Origin: Pseudomonas sp. B6002
GTDB taxonomy: Bacteria > Pseudomonadota > Gammaproteobacteria > Pseudomonadales > Pseudomonadaceae
Length of the DNA stretch: 64,000 bases
Reading direction: 5' to 3'
NCBI RefSeq assembly: GCF_013385985.1
Contig: NZ_JACAOY010000007.1
Location: 62,001 to 126,000 of the forward strand
Positions 173 through 27,323 of this stretch are shown here, piece after piece. The number at the start of each line of letters is the position of its first letter. Position 1 is the first letter of the stretch. The translations under genes were made by a program, and so were the position numbers. The notes under the pieces are model-generated. The model was not told the origin of the DNA. It made no database searches and worked only from the letters and a program-made list of their open reading frames with translations.

Positions 173-254
173 GGCAGCTCTCCGTTGGGGCTGGACAAAA
201 ACGGCGGGCAGGAAAAAGAAAATACAGACAGCCAAGCATCGCCCACCGTGATGC

Positions 255-500
255 TGTTGGATGCTCCGGGCCGGTCTCCGGGCTCATGAGTGGCGCCCTG
301 CCCTGATGAAAAGAGCGAGCAGGCCGACGTTGCGCCTTCCCATATCGCGCGCGATACAGTGGCAAAAGGCAGCGTCTTGACTCATTTACCGTTGCGGGGG
401 CAGCGCCGGAATCGCGGCAGCACTGTGTACAAGTGCGCTCACTCACCGGCTTCCCTGTTTCACCCTGTCGACGCATGCGCCACAGAGCACCTGGAACAAG
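255..500 (-). promoter_or_regulatory. Cobalamin (AdoCbl) riboswitch upstream of cobO
   Basis: On the minus strand the leader carries the conserved blocks of the cobalamin riboswitch in the right order. A GGGAAGCCGGTGA block lies near 443-459. The B12-box-like block GCTGCCCCCGCAACGGT lies near 388-404. The 3' block GCCCGGAGACCGGCC lies near 269-283. The last block is about 100 nt from the cobO start, which leaves room for a ribosome-site sequestering element. In the known family, coenzyme B12 binding lowers expression of the downstream gene. The ends are estimates. Confidence 0.9.
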
Positions 501-608
501 CCGCGAAGGTTAGTGGGTTGGGGGTGGAGCGTCAATTAAAGCTGCCCTCGCACTTGAACCATCGGACCGCCGTACTCCTCTACCCTTACAGGTATTCAGG
601 AGAACACC

Positions 609-17029: not shown

Positions 17030-17923
17030 TCAGGCCTGGTTGAGCTGAGCTTTGAGCAAGTCGCGGAAGGTCTGGATCAGCGGCTCGCGGCTGCGGCCAC
17101 GGCGCATGATCATCGAGAACGGCGCCTGGTAGCCAAAGGTCGCCGGCAGCAACACGCGCAGGTCGCCCTTGTCGGCCCACGCCTGGGCGTAGTGCTCCGG
17201 CAGGTAGCCGATATAGGCGCCGGACAGCACCAGGATCAGCTGCGCCTCCATACTTTCCACCGTGGCGGCGCTGTGCTTGAAGCCGTGGCGCGCGAGTTCT
17301 GCCTGGCTCCAGTAACCGCGCCCGACCATGCGTTGCTGGGTGATCACTTGCTCGGGGATACGCCGCTCGTTGAATAACGGATGGCGCGTGCTGCAATACA
17401 ACCAGTGCTGTTCGCGGTACAGCGGCATATAGATCAGGCCGCTCATGCGGTTGGAAAAGGCGCCGATGGCCAGGTCCAGGCGATTGTCCTGCACGCCCAG
17501 CTGCAGCTCGTAAGGGCTCATTACCGACAGGTGCAGGTGAACGGCCGGGTGCTCCAGGCTGTAGGCACCGATCACTTCAGCAAAGGGCAAAGCCTTGTCG
17601 CTGACGGTGGAGTCGAGCACGCCCAGCTTGAGGGTGCCGCGCAGTTCGCCCTTGAGCGCGGCGGCGTACTGCTCGAAACCCTCAAGCTCACCCAGCAATC
17701 GCAGGGTTTCCTGATGAAACAACTCGCCCTTGCTGGTGAGGCTGAACCCACCCCGGCCGCGATGGCACAGCACCAGGCCCAACGCCGATTCCAGTTGGCT
17801 CATGTAGGTACTGATGGCCGACGTGGACAGGTTGAGTTCGTGCTGGGCGTTGGCGAACCCCTGGTGCCGCACGACGCTGACGAAGATGCGCAGGAGTTTC
17901 AGGTCGGGCAAGGCGTTGGCCAT
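17030..17923 (-). CDS. gbuR: LysR-family regulator, GbuR-like
   Basis: ATG 17923 has GGAG upstream, so the longer frame starting at 17944 is not used; 297 residues result. The N-terminal helix-turn-helix is LRIFVSVVRHQGFANAQHEL and NLSTSAISTYMSQLESALG. A periplasmic-binding-like effector domain follows (GTLKLGVLDS, VMSPYELQLGVQDNRLDLAI). It is divergent from the guanidinobutyrase gene with 248 nt between them. From memory this is the arrangement of P. aeruginosa gbuR-gbuA (PA1422-PA1421), where GbuR activates gbuA in response to 4-guanidinobutyrate. The symbol rests on that synteny. Confidence 0.75.
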   Translation of the reverse strand: MANALPDLKLLRIFVSVVRHQGFANAQHELNLSTSAISTYMSQLESALGLVLCHRGRGGFSLTSKGELFHQETLRLLGELEGFEQYAAALKGELRGTLKLGVLDSTVSDKALPFAEVIGAYSLEHPAVHLHLSVMSPYELQLGVQDNRLDLAIGAFSNRMSGLIYMPLYREQHWLYCSTRHPLFNERRIPEQVITQQRMVGRGYWSQAELARHGFKHSAATVESMEAQLILVLSGAYIGYLPEHYAQAWADKGDLRVLLPATFGYQAPFSMIMRRGRSREPLIQTFRDLLKAQLNQA

Positions 17924-17950
17924 GGGGTCTCCGAAGGCACACACATAATC

Positions 17951-18171: not shown

Positions 18172-19122
18172 GTGGACAAGATTTTCCACCAACCACTGGG
18201 CGGCAACGAAATGCCGCGCTTCGCCGGCATCGCCACCATGATGCGCCTGCCCCACCTGCAAACGGCCAAGGGCCTGGACGCCGCCTTTATCGGCGTGCCC
18301 CTGGACATCGGCACCTCCCTGCGCGCCGGCACCCGCTTCGGGCCCCGTGAAATCCGCGCCGAATCCGTGATGATCCGCCCGTACAACATGGCCACCGGCG
18401 CTGCACCGTTCGACTCGCTGTCGGTGGCCGACATCGGTGACGTGGCGATCAACACCTTCAACCTGCTCGACGCCGTGCGCATCATCGAAGAAGCCTACGA
18501 CGAGATCCTCGAGCACGATGTGATCCCCCTGACCCTGGGTGGCGACCACACCATCACCCTGCCGATCCTGCGGGCGATCCACAAGAAACACGGCAAGGTC
18601 GGGCTGGTGCACATCGATGCCCACGCCGACGTCAACGACCACATGTTCGGCGAGAAAATCGCCCACGGCACCACCTTCCGCCGCGCGGTGGAAGAAGGCT
18701 TGCTGGACTGCGACCGCGTCGTGCAGATCGGCCTGCGTGCCCAGGGCTACACCGCCGAAGACTTCAACTGGAGCCGCAAACAGGGCTTCCGAGTGGTCCA
18801 GGCCGAAGAATGCTGGCACCACTCGCTCGCGCCGCTGATGGCAGAAGTGCGTGAAAAAGTCGGCGGCGGCCCGGTGTACCTGAGCTTTGATATCGACGGT
18901 ATCGACCCCGCGTGGGCCCCCGGCACCGGCACCCCGGAAATCGGTGGGCTGACCACCATCCAGGCCATCGAGATCATTCGTGGCTGCCAGGGCCTCGACC
19001 TGATTGGTTGTGATCTGGTAGAAGTTTCGCCGCCGTACGACACCACCGGCAACACCTCGCTGCTCGGCGCCAACCTGCTGTACGAGATGCTCTGCGTACT
19101 GCCCGGCGTGGCCCACCGCTGA
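18172..19122 (+). CDS. gbuA: Guanidinobutyrase (agmatinase/ureohydrolase family)
   Basis: The start is GTG, preceded by GAGG. The 316-residue ureohydrolase has all manganese-binding motifs: GGDHT at 123-127, DAHAD at 149-153 and SFDIDGIDPAWAPGTGTPE from 238. It hydrolyses a guanidino compound to an amine plus urea in the cytoplasm. Sequence alone would allow agmatinase (SpeB). I prefer guanidinobutyrase because the order LysR / ureohydrolase / NTF2-like / NCS1 permease / sodium symporter matches P. aeruginosa PA1422-PA1418. The product would be GABA. Guanidinopropionase is a further alternative. Confidence 0.85.
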   Translation: MDKIFHQPLGGNEMPRFAGIATMMRLPHLQTAKGLDAAFIGVPLDIGTSLRAGTRFGPREIRAESVMIRPYNMATGAAPFDSLSVADIGDVAINTFNLLDAVRIIEEAYDEILEHDVIPLTLGGDHTITLPILRAIHKKHGKVGLVHIDAHADVNDHMFGEKIAHGTTFRRAVEEGLLDCDRVVQIGLRAQGYTAEDFNWSRKQGFRVVQAEECWHHSLAPLMAEVREKVGGGPVYLSFDIDGIDPAWAPGTGTPEIGGLTTIQAIEIIRGCQGLDLIGCDLVEVSPPYDTTGNTSLLGANLLYEMLCVLPGVAHR

Positions 19123-19565: not shown

Positions 19566-21077
19566 ATGAATAATAAAAACAACGAAAACAGTATTCGCAA
19601 AATAGAAACCAACGGGGTCGAACAGATCCCGGACCACGAACGCACTGCCGGGCCCAAGGATCTGTTCCGACTGATCTTCGGCGGTGCCAATACCTTTGCC
19701 ACCGCCGTGCTGGGTTCCTTCCCGGTGTTGTTCGGCTTGTCGTTCCAGGCCGGTGTCTGGGCGATTGTGCTGGGCGTGCTGGTGGGTGCGCTGATCCTGG
19801 CACCCATGGGCCTGTTCGGGCCGATCAACGGCACCAACAACGCCGTGTCTTCCGGTGCGCACTTTGGCGTGCACGGGCGGATTGTCGGCTCTTTCCTGTC
19901 ATTGCTGACGGCGATTGCCTTCTTCTCACTGTCGGTGTGGAGTTCAGGTGACGCGCTGGTAGGCGGTGCGAAACGTCTGGTAGGCCTGCCGGAAACCGAC
20001 CTGACCCTGGGCCTGGCCTATGGCCTGTTCGCCCTGCTCGTGCTCACGGTGTGCATCTACGGCTTTCGCTTCATGCTATGGGTCAACCGCATTGCGGTGT
20101 GGGCCGCGAGCCTGTTGTTCCTGCTGGGCATCTTTGCCTTCGCACCGGCGTTCGACAGCCACTTCGCCGGCACCGTCGCACTGGGCCAGACCGGCTTCTG
20201 GGCGGCGTTTATCGGTGCCGCGCTGGTGGCCATGAGCAACCCGATTTCCTTCGGGGCGTTCCTCGGTGACTGGTCGCGCTACATCCCACGTGAAACGCCG
20301 AAAATGCGCATCATGCTGGCGGTGGTGCTGGCGCAGATCGCCACCTTGATCCCGTTCCTGTTCGGCCTGGCCACCGCGACCATCGTGGCGATCAAGGCGC
20401 CGGACTACATCGCGGCCAACAACTACGTCGGCGGTTTGCTCGCCGTGGCACCGAGCTGGTTCTTCCTGCCGGTGTGCCTGATCGCGGTGATCGGCGGCAT
20501 GTCCACCGGCACCACCTCGCTGTATGGCACGGGCTTGGACATGTCCAGCGTGTTCCCGCGCCTGCTGTCGCGGGTCAAGGCCACGTTGCTGATCGGGGTG
20601 ATGTCGATTGCCTTCATCTTCATCGGACGTTTCGCCGCCAACCTGGTGCAGAGCGTGTCGACCTTCGCCGTACTGATCATCACCTGCACTACACCGTGGA
20701 TGGTGATGATGATCATCGGCCTGATCGTGCGCCGTGGTTACTACTGCCCGGATGACCTGCAGGTGTTCACCCGTGGCGAAACCGGTGGTCGCTACTGGTT
20801 CAGCCATGGCTGGAACTGGCGCGGGCTGGGGGCCTGGATCCCGAGTGCGCTGGTGGGCCTGTGCTTCGTCAACCTGCCGGGGCAGTTTGTCGGGCCGCTG
20901 GGCAACCTCGCCGACGGCATCGACATCAGCCTGCCGGTGACGCTGGGACTGGCGTCGGTGGTGTACCTGACCTTGCTTCGCGTGTTTCCGGAACCGGCCG
21001 CTGTCTACGGCCCGGCGGACCCTCGCAGCAAGCGCACGGATGCGCGCGTTAAACCGGCGCTGCAACACGCCGCCTGA
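19566..21077 (+). CDS. NCS1-family permease (cytosine/purine permease type)
   Basis: The 503-residue integral membrane protein has GGAG before its ATG and about twelve hydrophobic segments. Typical NCS1/CodB stretches are FGGANTFATAVLGSFPVLFG, GPINGTNNAVSSGAHFGVHG and MSNPISFGAFLGDWSRYIPR. The N-terminal 40 residues are polar and Asn/Lys rich. The location after gbuA makes uptake of a guanidino compound or related nitrogen source more likely than a nucleobase, but the substrate is not shown by sequence. Confidence 0.82.
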   Translation: MNNKNNENSIRKIETNGVEQIPDHERTAGPKDLFRLIFGGANTFATAVLGSFPVLFGLSFQAGVWAIVLGVLVGALILAPMGLFGPINGTNNAVSSGAHFGVHGRIVGSFLSLLTAIAFFSLSVWSSGDALVGGAKRLVGLPETDLTLGLAYGLFALLVLTVCIYGFRFMLWVNRIAVWAASLLFLLGIFAFAPAFDSHFAGTVALGQTGFWAAFIGAALVAMSNPISFGAFLGDWSRYIPRETPKMRIMLAVVLAQIATLIPFLFGLATATIVAIKAPDYIAANNYVGGLLAVAPSWFFLPVCLIAVIGGMSTGTTSLYGTGLDMSSVFPRLLSRVKATLLIGVMSIAFIFIGRFAANLVQSVSTFAVLIITCTTPWMVMMIIGLIVRRGYYCPDDLQVFTRGETGGRYWFSHGWNWRGLGAWIPSALVGLCFVNLPGQFVGPLGNLADGIDISLPVTLGLASVVYLTLLRVFPEPAAVYGPADPRSKRTDARVKPALQHAA

Positions 21078-21112: not shown

Positions 21113-22495
21113 ATGGCTTTGGATTTATTCGTCGTACTCATCTACGCCGCCGGCATGCTCGTGCTCGGCTATTACGGCATGCGCCGCGCCAAGACCCACG
21201 AAGACTACCTGGTAGCCGGTCGCAACCTGGGCCCTTCGCTGTACATGGGCACCATGGCCGCCACGGTACTGGGCGGTGCGTCCACCGTCGGCACCGTGCG
21301 CCTGGGTTATGTGCACGGCATCTCCGGCTTCTGGCTGTGCGCCGCGCTGGGCATGGGGATCATTGCGCTGAACCTGTTCCTGGCCAAGCCGCTGCTGAAG
21401 CTGAAAATCTTCACCGTGACCCAGGTGCTGGAAAAGCGTTACAACCCCATGGCCCGCCAAGCGAGTGCGGTGATCATGCTGGCCTACGCCTTGATGATCG
21501 GCGTGACCTCGATCCTGGCAATCGGCACCGTGCTGCAAGTGTTGTTCGGCCTGCCGTTCTGGATCTCGGTGCTGCTGGGCGGTGGCGTGGTGGTGGTGTA
21601 TTCGACCATCGGCGGCATGTGGTCGCTGACCCTCACCGACATCGTGCAGTTCGTGATCAAGACCGTTGGCCTGATGTTTATCCTGCTGCCGATCTGCCTG
21701 TACCGCGTCGGCGGCTGGGATGAGCTGGTGGCCAAGCTGCCGGCGTCGAATTTCAGCTTCACCGAAATCGGCTGGGACACGATCATCACCTACTTCATGA
21801 TCTACTTCTTCGGCATCCTGATCGGCCAGGACATCTGGCAGCGCGTGTTCACTGCCCGTGATGAAAAGGTCGCCAAGTACGCGGGCACCTTCGCCGGCTT
21901 CTACTGCATTCTCTACGGCCTGGCCTGCGCATTGATCGGCATGGCAGCGCATGTGTTGATCCCCAACCTGGACAACGTCAACAACGCCTTCGCCGCCATC
22001 GTCAAACTGTCGCTGCCGGACGGCATCCGTGGCCTGGTGATTGCGGCGGCCCTGGCCGCGATGATGTCCACCGCCAGCGCTGGCCTGTTGGCCGCCTCCA
22101 CTGTCCTGACCGAAGACCTGCTGCCACGCCTGCGCGGCGGCAAGCAGTCGAGCCTGGCGATCAACCGCCTGTTCACGATGTTGACCGGTATCGCCGTACT
22201 GGGTATCGCGCTGGTGGTGAACGACGTGATCAGCGCCCTGACCCTGGCCTACAACCTGTTGGTGGGCGGCATGCTGATCCCGCTGATCGGCGCGATCTTC
22301 TGGAAGCGGGCAACCACCTCCGGCGCAATCACCTCCATGACCCTGGGCTTTGTGACCGCACTGGTGTTCATGTTCAAGGATGGCCTGGATGCGAACACGC
22401 CGATCTATTACAGCCTGGCAGTCGGGCTGGTGAGCTTCGTGCTGGTGAGCCTGTTGTCGCGCAAGCCGGAGGCAATGGCGGCGCGGGCGGTTTGA
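21113..22495 (+). CDS. Sodium:solute symporter of the gbu cluster
   Basis: The 460-residue protein starts at an ATG with GGAG upstream. It has the SSS-family 13-helix pattern with GMRRAKTHEDYLVAGRNLGP, the sodium-site region LGGASTVGTVRLGYVHG and GQDIWQRVFTARDEK in the cytoplasmic loop. It is the last gene of the cluster and is followed by a strong terminator. Position and family suggest sodium-coupled uptake of 4-guanidinobutyrate or a related compound. The nearby NCS1 permease gives the cluster two unrelated transporters. Confidence 0.85.
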   Translation: MALDLFVVLIYAAGMLVLGYYGMRRAKTHEDYLVAGRNLGPSLYMGTMAATVLGGASTVGTVRLGYVHGISGFWLCAALGMGIIALNLFLAKPLLKLKIFTVTQVLEKRYNPMARQASAVIMLAYALMIGVTSILAIGTVLQVLFGLPFWISVLLGGGVVVVYSTIGGMWSLTLTDIVQFVIKTVGLMFILLPICLYRVGGWDELVAKLPASNFSFTEIGWDTIITYFMIYFFGILIGQDIWQRVFTARDEKVAKYAGTFAGFYCILYGLACALIGMAAHVLIPNLDNVNNAFAAIVKLSLPDGIRGLVIAAALAAMMSTASAGLLAASTVLTEDLLPRLRGGKQSSLAINRLFTMLTGIAVLGIALVVNDVISALTLAYNLLVGGMLIPLIGAIFWKRATTSGAITSMTLGFVTALVFMFKDGLDANTPIYYSLAVGLVSFVLVSLLSRKPEAMAARAV

Positions 22496-22577: not shown

Positions 22578-24632
22578 TCAATTCGCCTGGATGATTTCCT
22601 GGACCAGCGAGGCCCACACCAAGCCCTGGGTTGTGCCTGCGGCGTAGGTTCCACCGGCTACGATGCGATGGTGGGCAGAGCAATAGACTATCGATAGCCC
22701 ATCCTGAGTGCCGGGCCTGGCACATTCGATAATATCCAAGTCGCCAATTTCGATAGCCCTGCGATAGGAGTTCGGAAAGTGCCGAGCAACCGCCATCAGA
22801 CATGCAGTCAATATTTCTTCCTTGTGCTCTGACGTTGAGCCGGGCACTACTTGCCCGCCAGAGACAAGAATATAGTCCCCGTCCAAACGGCAATTCATGA
22901 CGCCTATTGGCAGATCGTACTGCAACTTGAACCCACGCATTTCGGCACCTTCATTACCAACCGCGCGCAGCTTGAAAAACCAGCCAATAATCGCGACGAC
23001 CTCTGGCTCCTCCACTCCCATGGCAGTGACGACGAAGACGTCCTGGCTTAATTCGGCGATTTGAGAAGTGTTCAAATGCTGGGGTACAAACTGAACTCCG
23101 GAGCCCTGCAAAAGCGCCTCGACCTCTCCCATTAAATGGACAAACTCCAAGTCGTAGCCCGACACCTCGATCGCTCGGCCAACTCCGCAGACTCCATAGC
23201 GTCCTTGGAATTGCAGTGGCGCAATATCTGTTAGTTCACCTCCTGGCTTACCACTCGGCCAAGTCCTGTTTTCAATATCGCATTGCTCACGAATCGCTCT
23301 CTCTGCGCCTGTGTCCTCGTCCCTATAGGCTCGTACAACCCGTGCCTTTGCGAATCGCGCCAGCGACGGATTGTCCGCCAGAAGCTTTTCAAACAACTCG
23401 ATGCCTGCACGATTGCACTCAATGGCCAAACGCTGATTGCCAGGCAATAAATAGTCGTTTTCCAGGGGCTTTGCGGTGGTCTCCGTTGCTGACATATGGC
23501 GCATGTTTATACGCTTGTGACTGGCTCCATCGCCCTGCTGATGTCCGCCATACACCGTGACCTGATAATTCGCGAGGCGCAGCATGACCGCTTGGAGCAA
23601 GCCGTTGATGCCCCTACCGATGATTGCCACGTGCGGCGCACCGGCATCGGCAGGCCGTGGGGGGATCGTCAGTGATTGTGCGAGCTTGCGCCTGACCAAG
23701 CCGCGCAAGGCCATCAGACTCAGTTGCACCGAAACCGCATAGTCGAGGTCGCAATGGCAGCCTTCGGTCGTTGCCGCCTGAATCGTAAGTGTCGCGGGCT
23801 TGCACCACGTGCAGAGACTGCAGCCCAGTGTTTGTGTACGTATCCGAAATGCCTCCAGTGTCGTCGGCCCATAGTCCAGCACCAGTTGAACACCTTGAGC
23901 TGCCGCCAGAGTCAGTAAAGCGTCATCGCTGAAGACGTCCGGTTTAGCCACACAAACCAGGCGAGCGCTTTTGTGCAGGCATTGAATGAGGGCTCGATCA
24001 ATGCGATGAATGGACTCATCGTTCAACGACAAACAGATGGCGACGGCATAAGCACCCTCCAGTGCTTCCTGCCAGTCCGTGACAAATATCACTCGGCTGT
24101 CAGAACTCGGCGCCTGATCGTGCCGAACCAACACCTTGATCCGAATATTCGGGGTTCGATCCAGTAACAACTTTACAAGCGCTTTCCCCACATTGCCGTA
24201 TCCCAGCACGCTGATATCACGGGGGATGGAGCCGTCTCCTACTGTCAGCCAATGCGCAATATAGGCCGCAACGTGTGGTGCATTAACGCCGGGTAAGTTG
24301 ATGACTCGAATGCTGTTGGACTCGCATAGCGCCAATGCCACCTTGTCCAAGCTCGTGCCTCTGCGAACCAAATAGAGATCGCCAAACGGGTGTGAAATAC
24401 GCCATTGGGCAATGACGTCTGCATCGATCACTTGATCCCCGACGATGATCGCTGATGGATGCAAGAGTGCGATCTGTATGAGCAAGGATTGCTTGGTTAA
24501 TGTCGGCGGAAAAAAGACTACGTTTTGGGGTGCGTCGGTCTTCCAGGATTTGGACACTGGCGCGATATGTAGAACAGTTTCATAAGTGGCAATCAGTGAC
24601 GCGGCGACCGGCGGAACGCGAGAGGGGCGCAT
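22578..24632 (-). CDS. Fusion of a D-2-hydroxyacid-dehydrogenase-like half and a DAO-type FAD oxidoreductase half
   Basis: ATG 24632 has GGAG at 8-9 nt and is preferred to a longer in-frame start at 24677; 684 residues result. Residues about 40-315 look like a D-2-hydroxyacid dehydrogenase. A substrate-side stretch with INLPGVNAPHVAAYIAHWL is followed by the NAD loop VLGYGNVGKAL (about 143-153). The usual catalytic Arg position reads VCVAKPDVFSDD, and the TPHxG histidine is missing. A cysteine cluster, CSLCTWC...CHC, falls at about 271-294. From about 334 a second Rossmann fold, VAIIGRGINGLLQAVML, starts a DAO-type FAD oxidoreductase ending AGGTYAAGTTQGLVWA. Base composition looks lower in GC than its neighbours. 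No characterised fusion of this kind is known to me. Confidence 0.75.
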   Translation of the reverse strand: MRPSRVPPVAASLIATYETVLHIAPVSKSWKTDAPQNVVFFPPTLTKQSLLIQIALLHPSAIIVGDQVIDADVIAQWRISHPFGDLYLVRRGTSLDKVALALCESNSIRVINLPGVNAPHVAAYIAHWLTVGDGSIPRDISVLGYGNVGKALVKLLLDRTPNIRIKVLVRHDQAPSSDSRVIFVTDWQEALEGAYAVAICLSLNDESIHRIDRALIQCLHKSARLVCVAKPDVFSDDALLTLAAAQGVQLVLDYGPTTLEAFRIRTQTLGCSLCTWCKPATLTIQAATTEGCHCDLDYAVSVQLSLMALRGLVRRKLAQSLTIPPRPADAGAPHVAIIGRGINGLLQAVMLRLANYQVTVYGGHQQGDGASHKRINMRHMSATETTAKPLENDYLLPGNQRLAIECNRAGIELFEKLLADNPSLARFAKARVVRAYRDEDTGAERAIREQCDIENRTWPSGKPGGELTDIAPLQFQGRYGVCGVGRAIEVSGYDLEFVHLMGEVEALLQGSGVQFVPQHLNTSQIAELSQDVFVVTAMGVEEPEVVAIIGWFFKLRAVGNEGAEMRGFKLQYDLPIGVMNCRLDGDYILVSGGQVVPGSTSEHKEEILTACLMAVARHFPNSYRRAIEIGDLDIIECARPGTQDGLSIVYCSAHHRIVAGGTYAAGTTQGLVWASLVQEIIQAN

Positions 24633-24863
24633 GGCTTTGTCTCCAACAATTCTGGCTGACCAACGCCCCAAAAACACACTCGATAAAGTTGGGCCACTAA
24701 AGAAATGCGCTTAGGTTCTACTCGGTCTTTAAAGGGCGTCAGGGCGGACCTTTCCTGGCAGAGTTCAACCTAGGCGCATCGATGGGATTAAATAAGTGCC
24801 CTGCTTCTGACAATGAGGTAGTCCGTTTCTGACGCTAAAACGTCAAGTCCGGGCGGGCCCGCG

Positions 24864-25220
24864 CTAAGGCATGCCCCCTCCAAACAGGTCGTCGCACGTC
24901 GTGCAGCCAAAATACTGCTGTACCCCCGGGCAGACGATTTCGCCCGTGTGTCCTGCGCGTACGTGCCAGGTACAGGCCTTTCCCTGATACGTCAGGGTGC
25001 CCTCAAGGTGACAAGGCGCCCAATTGTATTCGTCATGCAGCGTGCGCCCATCAATGCGCTCGGCACGCTTGAAGAAAGAGGCGATTTGCCGCTCATCGAG
25101 TGCAACGTCCGATGCTCGGCACGACTCAGGCTCCGTGGATTCAAAACGCGTAATCGACACGTCGCTGACAGGCGAACAGCCCACGAGTAACACCGCAAAC
25201 GTCCCTGGCCAAAACCTCAT
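24864..25220 (-). CDS. Small cysteine-rich lipoprotein, possible immunity partner of the amidase
   Basis: The ATG at 25220 overlaps the amidase stop as ATGA. The 118-residue product has a lipoprotein signal, MRFWPGTFAVLLVGC. The mature part has seven more cysteines, including CTTCDD near the C-terminus and GKACTWHVRAGHTGEIVCPG, which suggests disulfide bonding in the periplasm. I do not recognise the family. An exported lipoprotein translated immediately after a peptidoglycan amidase is the usual layout of effector/immunity pairs, for example type VI secretion amidases. That role is inference only. Confidence 0.7.
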   Translation of the reverse strand: MRFWPGTFAVLLVGCSPVSDVSITRFESTEPESCRASDVALDERQIASFFKRAERIDGRTLHDEYNWAPCHLEGTLTYQGKACTWHVRAGHTGEIVCPGVQQYFGCTTCDDLFGGGMP

Positions 25221-25819
25221 TGCCACACCGCACTGCCGGCTTCACCCAGATGTTTATACGAAATTTGCGGGTGGGTGTAGACGTCCTTCGACGTCAGGTT
25301 GAAATGACCGTATAGCTCAGCGACCAACCATTGCAGCGATTGATTTTGCAACGCCGTCACCTTCTCGTAATGTGTTTTGTCCAAGTGTTTTCCGACCAGC
25401 TCGATGCCTAATGAATCGGCATTCATGGGGTAACGCTCAGGGTAGTTCTTGGTGCGTTCATACCGATCCAACGCGCGGAACTGCAACTCCCAGGTGAGTG
25501 ATTTAATAGCCTTCATCTGAACAGCGTCACACGTTGACTCATCCACCGCCTCGCACTTGGAGCGCAGTAGTCTCCCGACGTGATAACAGCGTTTTTTCAG
25601 GCTGGCCGTCTGGTAGATCACACCGTCCTTTTCGATCAGAAAATGCGCGCCGTTGCCCTTATTTCGGTAAGTATTGAACGTGTGCTGCGCCGTCGGGGCG
25701 TCAGTCTGGTGGACCACCAGAGCGTGCACACTACGCAGATCCCCCTGCTCGATCGCTGGAAAACGGCGGAGTTCGACCTTGCTGGAAATCAACATGCCTT
25801 CGTTATCAATGCTCGACAT
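25217..25819 (-). CDS. N-acetylmuramoyl-L-alanine amidase (Amidase_2)
   Basis: The 200-residue protein has no signal peptide. The Amidase_2 fold is visible: HALVVHQTDAPTAQHTFNTY carries the first zinc His, and GNGAHFLIEKDGVIYQTASL and CYHVGRLL follow. DSLGIELVGKHLDKTHYEKV is the active-site Glu region, and DVYTHPQISYKHLGEAG has the second zinc His. The usual DPG of AmpD-type enzymes reads GEAG. The family cuts the MurNAc-L-Ala bond of peptidoglycan. Lack of an export signal plus a coupled lipoprotein gene suggests a specialised secretion effector. A phage-derived lysin is another possibility, although no phage genes are adjacent. Confidence 0.83.
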   Translation of the reverse strand: MSSIDNEGMLISSKVELRRFPAIEQGDLRSVHALVVHQTDAPTAQHTFNTYRNKGNGAHFLIEKDGVIYQTASLKKRCYHVGRLLRSKCEAVDESTCDAVQMKAIKSLTWELQFRALDRYERTKNYPERYPMNADSLGIELVGKHLDKTHYEKVTALQNQSLQWLVAELYGHFNLTSKDVYTHPQISYKHLGEAGSAVWQ

Positions 25820-25902
25820 TCCGATGCCTTTTCATCCTTGTGAAGACGAAAATATAGAGGCTGAAATGGGGAAAAGGCGTGGATGACGGGATAAGCAGAA
25901 GG

Positions 25903-25931
25903 GTCTGACGATGGCACGTGCATCGTCAGAC
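25903..25931 (-). terminator. Perfect inverted repeat, possible 3' end of the PA1414-like transcript
   Basis: GTCTGACGATG-GCACGTG-CATCGTCAGAC has an 11-bp perfect stem. On the minus strand it is followed by CCCTTCTGCTT, a weak T run. It could be a terminator for the small-gene transcript or a regulatory hairpin. Confidence 0.45.
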
Positions 25932-26240
25932 GATAAACGGGGGGAGGTGTTGCGAAAAAAGGAGGTGCGCTCAGATCACAGGGAACCGGAACTGCCCTGA
26001 AACACTACCTGTAGCATCAGCGCCCGCACGTTCAATGTCTGATCGTTTGAGCGCTTTACGCTTACCTGCGGCGTGGTCGGCGCTGCTCGTCATCCGTACG
26101 GATTGGCACCGGTTGCAGCGGAGGCTCGATCAAGCCCAGCGCAACGCCAAGGTCATGGAGCCAGTTTTGAATTTTCTCTTTCATGGTTGCCCCCTTTGAG
26201 GGTGATGCGAGCCGGCGAGATACCTGTCGACTTTTCCTAC
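25932..26240 (-). ncRNA. Candidate SicX-like small RNA region (transcript of the PA1414-like gene)
   Basis: After the 40-codon gene the minus strand continues for about 130 nt without another good ORF and then reaches the perfect hairpin at 25903-25931. It contains two unpaired-looking CACCTCC motifs (complement of 25961-25967 and 25943-25949). GCGCTCA/TGAGCGC arms (26048-26054 with 25967-25973) could close a domain of about 90 nt just before CACCTCCTTTTTT. In P. aeruginosa, as I recall, the PA1414 locus produces the oxygen-responsive small RNA SicX. The equivalent position here makes a similar RNA plausible. A TACTAT minus-10-like element lies at 26245-26250. The boundaries are guesses. Confidence 0.4.
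26062..26184 (-). CDS. PA1414-like small protein, 40 residues
   Basis: The frame ATG 26184 to TAA is preceded by a strong AAGGGGG site at a good distance. The product starts MKEKIQNWLHDLGVALGLIE, continues PPLQPVPIRTDDEQ and ends in an Arg-rich tail. It thus has an amphipathic N-terminal helix, a Pro hinge and a basic end. From memory it resembles the family named after P. aeruginosa PA1414, a very short gene strongly induced at low oxygen. Synteny agrees: a LysR gene like PA1413 precedes it and the gbu genes (PA1418-PA1422) lie beyond. No function of the peptide is known to me. Confidence 0.75.
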   Translation of the reverse strand: MKEKIQNWLHDLGVALGLIEPPLQPVPIRTDDEQRRPRRR

Positions 26241-26302
26241 ACTGATAGTAGCCCTAAGTCCTACGCAATGCTTGAACGAAACCACAACGAACTGTTACCA
26301 GA

Positions 26303-26316
26303 TTGATGTGAATCCT
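26303..26316. promoter_or_regulatory. Candidate Anr/Dnr (FNR-type) box upstream of the PA1414-like gene
   Basis: TTGAT-GTGA-ATCCT matches the FNR-type consensus TTGAT-N4-ATCAA at eight of ten positions. It lies about 119 nt upstream of the small gene. That is further than expected from the TACTAT-like minus-10, so its use is uncertain. Confidence 0.3.
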
Positions 26317-26326
26317 GACGGATCGC

Positions 26327-27220
26327 TCAAGCAATCGCACGGGTGTCTTGCAGGAATTCGGCCTTGCCTTCTTGCTGCAGGTCGATCCATGCGTTGAGGT
26401 TAGCGCCGAGCATACCCTTTCGCCACATCAACCAAGTGGTCGCCATGGCATATGGCCCTGTCAGGGGATGAACGGACACGCTGTCCTTGCCCGGCAGGCT
26501 GTCGAGCATCGACTCGGACATCAACGCCACCCCGGAACCGGCAATTACACAGGCGAGCATGCCCTGGTAGGACTCGATCTCGATCGCCCGCCCCATCGCC
26601 ACGTGCTCATGGGAAAACCAGGTCTCCAGCCGCGTGCGGTAAGCGCAACTGCGGCGGAACGTGAACACCGAACGCCCGGCGACATCCTGCGGGCCGCGCA
26701 CCGGTGGGTGATCAGCCTCGCAAATCAGCACCAGCCGCTCTTCGCATAACGGCACGCCGTCCAGGGAAGCAATGGTGATCGGGCCATCCACAAAGGCCGC
26801 GTCGAGACGACCGGTGATCAGGCCTTCGAGCAATTCGCCGCTGGGGGCCGATTGCACCTGCAAGTTCACCATCGGGTAAGCCTTGTGATAACGCGCCAGC
26901 AACTTCGGCAAATGGACGGCCGCCGTGCTGTACATGCTGCCCAGCACAAATTCACCGGCCGGCTGCCCGCCTTGAACCGCGCCATGGGCTTCGTCGTGCA
27001 GGGCCAACAGGCGCGTGCTGTAGTCCAGCAGCACTTTACCGGCAGGAGAAAGCTGTAGCCGCTGGCGTTCACGTACGAACAGTTCAACGCCGAGCTGCTC
27101 TTCCATTTGCTTGAGGCGTGTCGACAGGTTCGAAGGCACGCGATGCAGGCGATCGGCCGCGCGGGTAATGGAGCCCTCTTCCGCCACGGCCTGGAAAATG
27201 CGCAATTGACTGAACTCCAT
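26327..27220 (-). CDS. LysR-family regulator (PtrR/PA1413-like)
   Basis: ATG 27220 has GGAG-AAAGG upstream; an earlier TTG at 27232 is not needed. The 297-residue protein has the winged-helix N-terminus MEFSQLRIFQAVAEEGSITR and AADRLHRVPSNLSTRLKQME. An effector domain follows with GEFVLGSMYSTAAVHLPKLL and DAAFVDGPITIASLDGVPL. It is divergent from an MFS exporter gene with about 100 nt between starts, the classic LysR regulator/target layout, so the MFS gene is its likely target. From memory it corresponds in position to PA1413. Confidence 0.8.
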   Translation of the reverse strand: MEFSQLRIFQAVAEEGSITRAADRLHRVPSNLSTRLKQMEEQLGVELFVRERQRLQLSPAGKVLLDYSTRLLALHDEAHGAVQGGQPAGEFVLGSMYSTAAVHLPKLLARYHKAYPMVNLQVQSAPSGELLEGLITGRLDAAFVDGPITIASLDGVPLCEERLVLICEADHPPVRGPQDVAGRSVFTFRRSCAYRTRLETWFSHEHVAMGRAIEIESYQGMLACVIAGSGVALMSESMLDSLPGKDSVSVHPLTGPYAMATTWLMWRKGMLGANLNAWIDLQQEGKAEFLQDTRAIA

Positions 27221-27323
27221 ACCTTTCTCCAAAACTGAACAAGTTACTCACTATTATTCATTTTTACAGAAAGTCAATCGGCTTTAGCCTGAAGGTCATT
27301 CGCTTACCAGCAGGAACTTGACC

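Follow-up and report, generated by a model that had tools for sequence, protein, structure and literature searches.

The stretch of DNA analysed here (the window, 64,000 nucleotides of Pseudomonas sp. B6002) carries a gene for a small protein of the PA1414 family that is under purifying selection. The window holds no SicX-like leader, and its genome holds no UbiU above cutoff; in relatives of P. aeruginosa, a SicX-like leader is followed by the peptide gene. We make these statements, taken together, with high confidence.

The published account, in its available part, describes the PA1414 locus of P. aeruginosa as a 234-bp gene with an Anr motif upstream, and ranks its expression above that of every other P. 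aeruginosa gene in chronic infection of humans (Cao et al., 2023; PMC10247376). There, SicX transcripts are confined to the 5' end of the gene, a terminator lies inside the annotated gene, and SicX base-pairs with the 5' UTR of ubiUVT (PMC10247376). The same part of the account confines the locus to P. aeruginosa, no homologue in other species passing a BLASTN threshold of >90% identity and >90% coverage, and ascribes its action to RNA only (PMC10247376). A truncated PA1414 allele holding the 5' region only rescued the mutant, and the peptide is therefore not needed for that phenotype (PMC10247376).

A Conserved Small Protein Gene

The locus comprises the following features:
26062-26184, minus strand: PA1414-family small protein gene, 40 aa (NF041729 match; omega 0.048)
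26185-26238, minus strand: short 5' leader without similarity to SicX; the -10-like element gives its inferred start
26190-26202, minus strand: Shine-Dalgarno GGGGG, which a fold of the upstream 60 nt pairs with CCCUC to form a small hairpin
26244-26264, minus strand: conserved promoter block GTAGGACTTAGGGCTACTATC, with a -10-like TACTAT at 26245-26250 (comparison with 31 relatives)
26303-26316, minus strand: Anr/FNR-type box AGGATTCACATCAA, degenerate, agreeing with the consensus in 8 of 10 letters, at about -71.5 from the inferred start
25903-25931, minus strand: perfect hairpin that probably serves the small gene as a weak intrinsic terminator (fold and terminator-like scan)

The open reading frame (ORF) runs from an ATG through 40 codons to give MKEKIQNWLHDLGVALGLIEPPLQPVPIRTDDEQRRPRRR; AAAGGGGGCAACC stands directly 5' of it, and AAAGGGGGC lies just upstream, in agreement with the preliminary description of a 40-codon gene with a strong ribosome site. 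That description had also called the gene PA1414-like, which a curated profile confirms: NCBIfam NF041729 ("PA1414 family protein") matches the peptide at 83 bits against a cutoff of 28, over profile positions 1-43 of 43. The gene is thus a member of a known but uncharacterised protein family, and its peptide shares with the family profile a match over the whole length, although its Arg-rich tail (RRPRRR) is shorter than in most relatives. An AlphaFold model places a helix at residues 2-15 (mean pLDDT 71, pTM 0.33); after this N-terminal helix of modest model confidence come a Pro-rich hinge (EPPLQPVPI) and the tail. The hydrophobic moment lacked significance in all four peptides to which it was applied, the helix of the window peptide giving a shuffle P of 0.14.

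Purifying selection on this family member is evident from the substitutions themselves. Compared with the two relatives in the sample that match it best as DNA, the ORF differs at 12 and 13 synonymous sites and at no non-synonymous site; the nearest relative, with 12 synonymous changes, has no amino-acid change at all. Omega is 0.048 over the window and 11 relatives, which were picked by kinship and DNA match and not by peptide score; these 12 sequences were drawn from 18 loci, L131-L136 being left out as carrying other peptide types or no recognised ORF. A value of 0.019 over the window and 27 top-scoring loci is biased low, because its source was the best-scoring 30 of 288 loci, and the 24 loci from the genus of P. 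aeruginosa relatives (hereafter the relatives' genus) give 0.25.

The family is also broader than the preliminary description, which placed the locus outside P. aeruginosa, had led us to expect. Of 299 genomes in the window's genus, NF041729 finds it in 288 (284 above cutoff), and it is in all 25 of the relatives' genus, where a SicX-like leader accompanies it in 24; the gene is therefore not specific to P. aeruginosa. An order-wide draw yielded matches in 8 of 194 genomes, 7 of them within the same taxonomic family (6 above cutoff). One genome, G003, is alone in the table for the window's genus in having two family matches. A BLASTN search of plasmids with the region as query matched nothing.

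Gene Neighbourhood

The surroundings of the gene are as follows:
17030-17944: LysR regulator
18172-19122: agmatinase/guanidinobutyrase-type enzyme
19566-21077: NCS1-type permease
21113-22495: sodium:solute symporter
22578-24677, minus strand: 699-residue ORF joining a 2-hydroxyacid-dehydrogenase NAD-binding part to a C-terminal FAD-dependent oxidoreductase (DAO) domain
25217-25819, minus strand: AmpD-like amidase (Amidase_2), right after the small gene
26327-27232, minus strand: PtrR-type LysR regulator (NF047711, 467.6 bits against a cutoff of 400), upstream of the small gene

The P. aeruginosa gene order proposed in the preliminary description stands in part: the LysR gene, the small gene and the symporter, permease, agmatinase-type and LysR genes are all there, but the metallo-hydrolase gene that comes next after the peptide gene in many relatives, at what we take to be the PA1415 position, has no match in the window. 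In its place, the AmpD-like gene and the dehydrogenase/DAO fusion lie between the peptide gene and the symporter cluster. Among 87 loci, a LysR gene neighbours the peptide gene in 30 and a metallo-hydrolase gene in 56; absence of a neighbour is not proof here, because these loci cover only about 1.5 kb on each side. The window's locus is alone among the 87 in carrying an AmpD-like gene, and G017, outside that set, carries one too (79% identity). The fusion itself is an unusual domain pairing, relatives of which also follow the peptide gene in G017 and G004. Across the whole window Rfam finds two RNAs, neither of them at the small gene: a cobalamin riboswitch (252-509, minus strand, 97.5 bits) and the Pseudomonas sRNA P17 (49740-49968, minus strand), the latter at 45.1 bits, just above its gathering score of 45.

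Promoter, Leader, and a Possible Link to Oxygen

The promoter block is nearly constant. Written in degenerate form as GTAGGACTTNGGNCTANTATC, it is matched without mismatch in 23 of 32 sequences (the window and 31 relatives) and with at most 3 mismatches in the remainder, and within the window's own 6.68-Mb genome it is matched once only, allowing up to 3 mismatches. No sigma-70 consensus promoter was found. Downstream of the block, the leader is less stable than shuffled sequence (z +1.3; 185 of 200 shuffles as stable). The four counted pairs of the Shine-Dalgarno hairpin are kept in 26 or 27 of 27 aligned sequences (window included), and because these pairs never vary, covariation lends the hairpin no support.

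A possible link to oxygen comes from the Anr/FNR-type box. The window's score of 8 of 10 is reached by 6% of shuffled upstream regions, and the best score is at least 8 in 50 of 95 loci against that 6% of shuffles, with the reservation that these loci are not independent, since they include 8 named near-duplicates (L069-L076) and related species. L013, L041, and L098 have perfect boxes in a similar position; in L014, L016, L054, and L055 the best Anr-type site is elsewhere. Control of the window gene by the oxygen sensor Anr is plausible on this showing. The most serious alternative, to which we would give somewhat less than an even chance, is that a genuine gene is here uncoupled from oxygen, its Anr box having decayed in the window's lineage while another activator drives the promoter block. 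Boxes are indeed degenerate in the window and in many relatives while the block has stayed near-constant; against this, the position of the box is kept in many relatives, and the three loci named above retain perfect boxes.

The Downstream Stretch

The preliminary description also reported a long untranslated stretch and a perfect hairpin behind the gene, and both are there, the hairpin falling just outside the interval that it gave (25932-26250). The structure lies about 130 nt 3' of the gene, with a perfect stem of 11 bp and a loop of 7 nt, and its energy of -18 kcal/mol (z -5.4) was equalled by 0 of 200 shuffles. It is also among the 3 terminator-like sites found in 25800-26400, where 0.5 were expected. 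Being far more stable than shuffled sequence and passing the terminator-like scan, it is read as a weak terminator, at which the mRNA of the small gene probably ends.

Alternatively, the stretch 25903-26061 with its hairpin might constitute a separate small RNA derived from the 3' UTR. We consider this unlikely: the hairpin is stable and its stem is largely kept in the closest relative, G017, but conservation against G017 is lower in the stretch as a whole (73% identity) than in the gene (90%), the hairpin arms are absent at the G004 locus, and Rfam finds no RNA family at its cutoff in the downstream stretch. A permissive Rfam scan of 25850-26350 returned a single match, which fell short of its family cutoff, lay on the opposite strand and concerned an unrelated viral family, and Rfam matched nothing in the loci of four relatives. 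A second 40-codon frame within the stretch (25971-26093, minus strand) matched no protein family, and the nearest relative has gaps in that part of the sequence.

Search for SicX in the Window

The preliminary description had proposed a SicX-type RNA region at this locus, a claim that fails for the window when its sequence is compared with the SicX-like leader of the relatives. A covariance model of that leader (R1) was built from 20 sequences, taken from relatives and not from P. aeruginosa itself, and was searched over 40 sources, a part of the loci, where it recovered its own kind and one match at E = 0.31 (L053). It has no match in the window and none in the window's own genome, the latter searched under stricter filters that can lose weak matches; under such filters its only match among the 299 genomes of the window's genus was G027, at 28 bits. 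The leader of that locus (L152) keeps an Anr-type box and hairpin with the SicX core missing, and is possibly an intermediate form. Within 300 nt 5' of the window gene, nothing comes closer than 8 mismatches to the invariant 17-nt core; over all 64 kb, the only site within 3 mismatches (10734) is at chance level. Nor does any terminator-like site precede the ORF on its own strand within 25800-26400; the single minus-strand site lies downstream of the gene.

The window shares with the SicX locus of P. aeruginosa a small gene of the same kind beside a PA1413-type LysR gene, and has a degenerate candidate Anr-like box upstream, but lacks the SicX-like leader, the pre-ORF terminator, and the ubiUVT target; moreover, SicX is the 5' end of its transcript, whereas the RNA region flagged in the window is a 3' stretch. 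That the locus might even so be a SicX-type regulatory RNA with a merely nominal small gene, as the homologous gene, the partly matching neighbourhood, and the Anr-like box would allow, is highly improbable given that neither the sequence nor the structure of SicX is present, that UbiU does not rise above cutoff, that no terminator-like site precedes the ORF on the minus strand, and that exclusively synonymous change against the two nearest relatives points to a protein.

Leader and Peptide in Relatives of P. aeruginosa

Within the relatives' genus, 24 of 25 genomes have a layout that matches the published SicX locus from the box to the family ORF: a TTGA(T/C)NNNN(A/G)TCAG box, a -10-like element, the leader, a GC-rich hairpin, a Shine-Dalgarno sequence, and a family ORF of 37-44 residues. 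The leader contains an invariant 17-nt core, CGGAGAGTGGGACGCCG, in the same 24 of 25 genomes, and the core is present in 8 of 8 named loci from P. nitroreducens and relatives. The SicX-like RNA of these species accordingly lies 5' of a real ORF and not 3' of it. The hairpin is not followed by a clean T run. Covariation, a test that the preliminary description had advocated, supports the leader of the relatives: in an alignment of 20 of the 24 SicX-type loci (A3), 99.4% of cells are paired and 5 pairs have changed on both sides, a result equalled by 0 of 500 shuffles, with GAGAGUGGGA in the loop of a stem in the consensus structure. For the window-type leader the signal is weak, both sides having changed in 2 of 14 pairs. 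One genome labelled as belonging to the relatives' genus, G504 (L098), has a peptide and leader of the type found in the window's genus together with its perfect Anr box, and its label or assembly may be mixed.

The genome of L091, which we take to be probably P. paraeruginosa PA7, serves as our stand-in for P. aeruginosa sensu stricto; its guanidinobutyrase differs at few positions from PDB 3NIO, presumably the P. aeruginosa enzyme. At L091, reading from a GTG that lies in frame 33 codons before the family ATG yields 77 residues and a stop, or 234 bp, which is the published length of PA1414. The 77-residue length recurs in L078 and L082, and other genomes give other lengths. The L091 hairpin falls between that GTG and the ATG of the family ORF, which agrees with the published terminator and short 5' transcripts. 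From the 234-bp frame and the layout in the relatives, the annotated start of PA1414 most likely lies inside the leader, and SicX would be that leader; we infer that the published P. aeruginosa locus has the leader-then-peptide layout too.

Regulatory RNAs derived from attenuated 5' leaders are a generally known class. The relatives of P. aeruginosa resemble it in placing a terminator-like hairpin between a structured leader and a downstream ORF; the short leader of the window does not fit the class. The open-access literature on SicX/PA1414, Pseudomonas sRNAs, small-protein Ribo-seq, and UbiUVT holds, as far as its abstracts go, no description of the internal 44-codon frame or of SicX outside P. 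aeruginosa, and the same is true of passages from PMC10926688, PMC11705926, PMC12300143, which treats other genes only, and PMC10433244, where PA1414 does not occur.

UbiU and the Age of the SicX RNA

No UbiU above cutoff is found in the window genome, and the known target of SicX is therefore missing from it. Of its two U32 proteins, one is TrhP (805.8 bits) and the other, presumably RlhA, falls below every listed cutoff. Across the window's genus, UbiU is above cutoff in 69 of 299 genomes as against 288 with the peptide, and peptide and target are therefore not tied to each other. In the relatives' genus, 19 of 25 genomes have UbiU above cutoff, and the SicX core is kept in five of the six that do not (G391, G493, G497, G507, and G508, but not G504).

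When the regions upstream of ubiU were compared in all 19, only that of the L091 genome combined an Anr-type box with CCCACT, a candidate pairing site complementary to AGUGGG of the SicX loop. In that genome ubiU starts 114 nt past the stop of the longest upstream frame, as against 18-79 nt in the other 18, and a stem predicted between GGGGUUGC and GCAACCCC just before the ubiU start is consistent with the published model. When whole leaders were paired with ubiU leaders, the duplex energies did not stand out, 90, 153, and 195 of 200 shuffles being as strong. In the probable-PA7 pair, complementarity runs longest, over 10 nt, between GCGGAGAGTG and CGTTTTTCGC; AGTGGG/CCCACT, a match of 6 nt, falls outside the ten listed for this pair. 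Because a longer G-U-rich stretch outscores CCCACT, the true pairing site is uncertain, and CCCACT as the site of SicX on ubiU is a guess.

With the core kept in genomes that have no UbiU above cutoff, and with a lone Anr-boxed ubiU leader, the RNA looks older than its known target, which is the simplest reading of these patterns. Against it stand the unremarkable duplex energies of the whole leaders, the uncertainty over the pairing site, and the chance that species have lost their targets.

A Proposed Re-reading of the PA1414 Locus

In the window, then, the locus would give rise to a translated 40-residue protein of the PA1414 family, its own promoter driving the gene, perhaps with a contribution from Anr, and the hairpin at 25903-25931 probably ending the mRNA. 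In the relatives' genus, the same gene bears a longer leader with a GC-rich terminator-like hairpin; SicX would be that leader set free, and the peptide would come from transcripts that read through the hairpin. As for the protein, our guess is that it acts in low-oxygen adaptation, with a partner bound through the helix and the basic tail.

On balance, and with some reserve, we favour the wider proposal that PA1414 is a mis-annotated two-part locus, SicX being the leader, attenuated and under Anr control, of a conserved Pseudomonas gene for a small protein. The leader would have become fixed in the relatives' genus, the GAGAGUGGGA loop serving an older target or a role in cis; ubiU would have gained its longer, Anr-boxed leader only in the P. 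aeruginosa lineage; and the 44-residue protein would represent the older function of the locus.

With this comparison, the claim that this Pseudomonas has a SicX RNA falls, and in its place comes a testable re-reading of the SicX locus as one that encodes a nearly genus-wide protein under selection, and whose RNA part is common to environmental relatives, including species without its known target. Two questions thereby become testable in species that are harmless: what the small protein does, and what role SicX played before ubiUVT.
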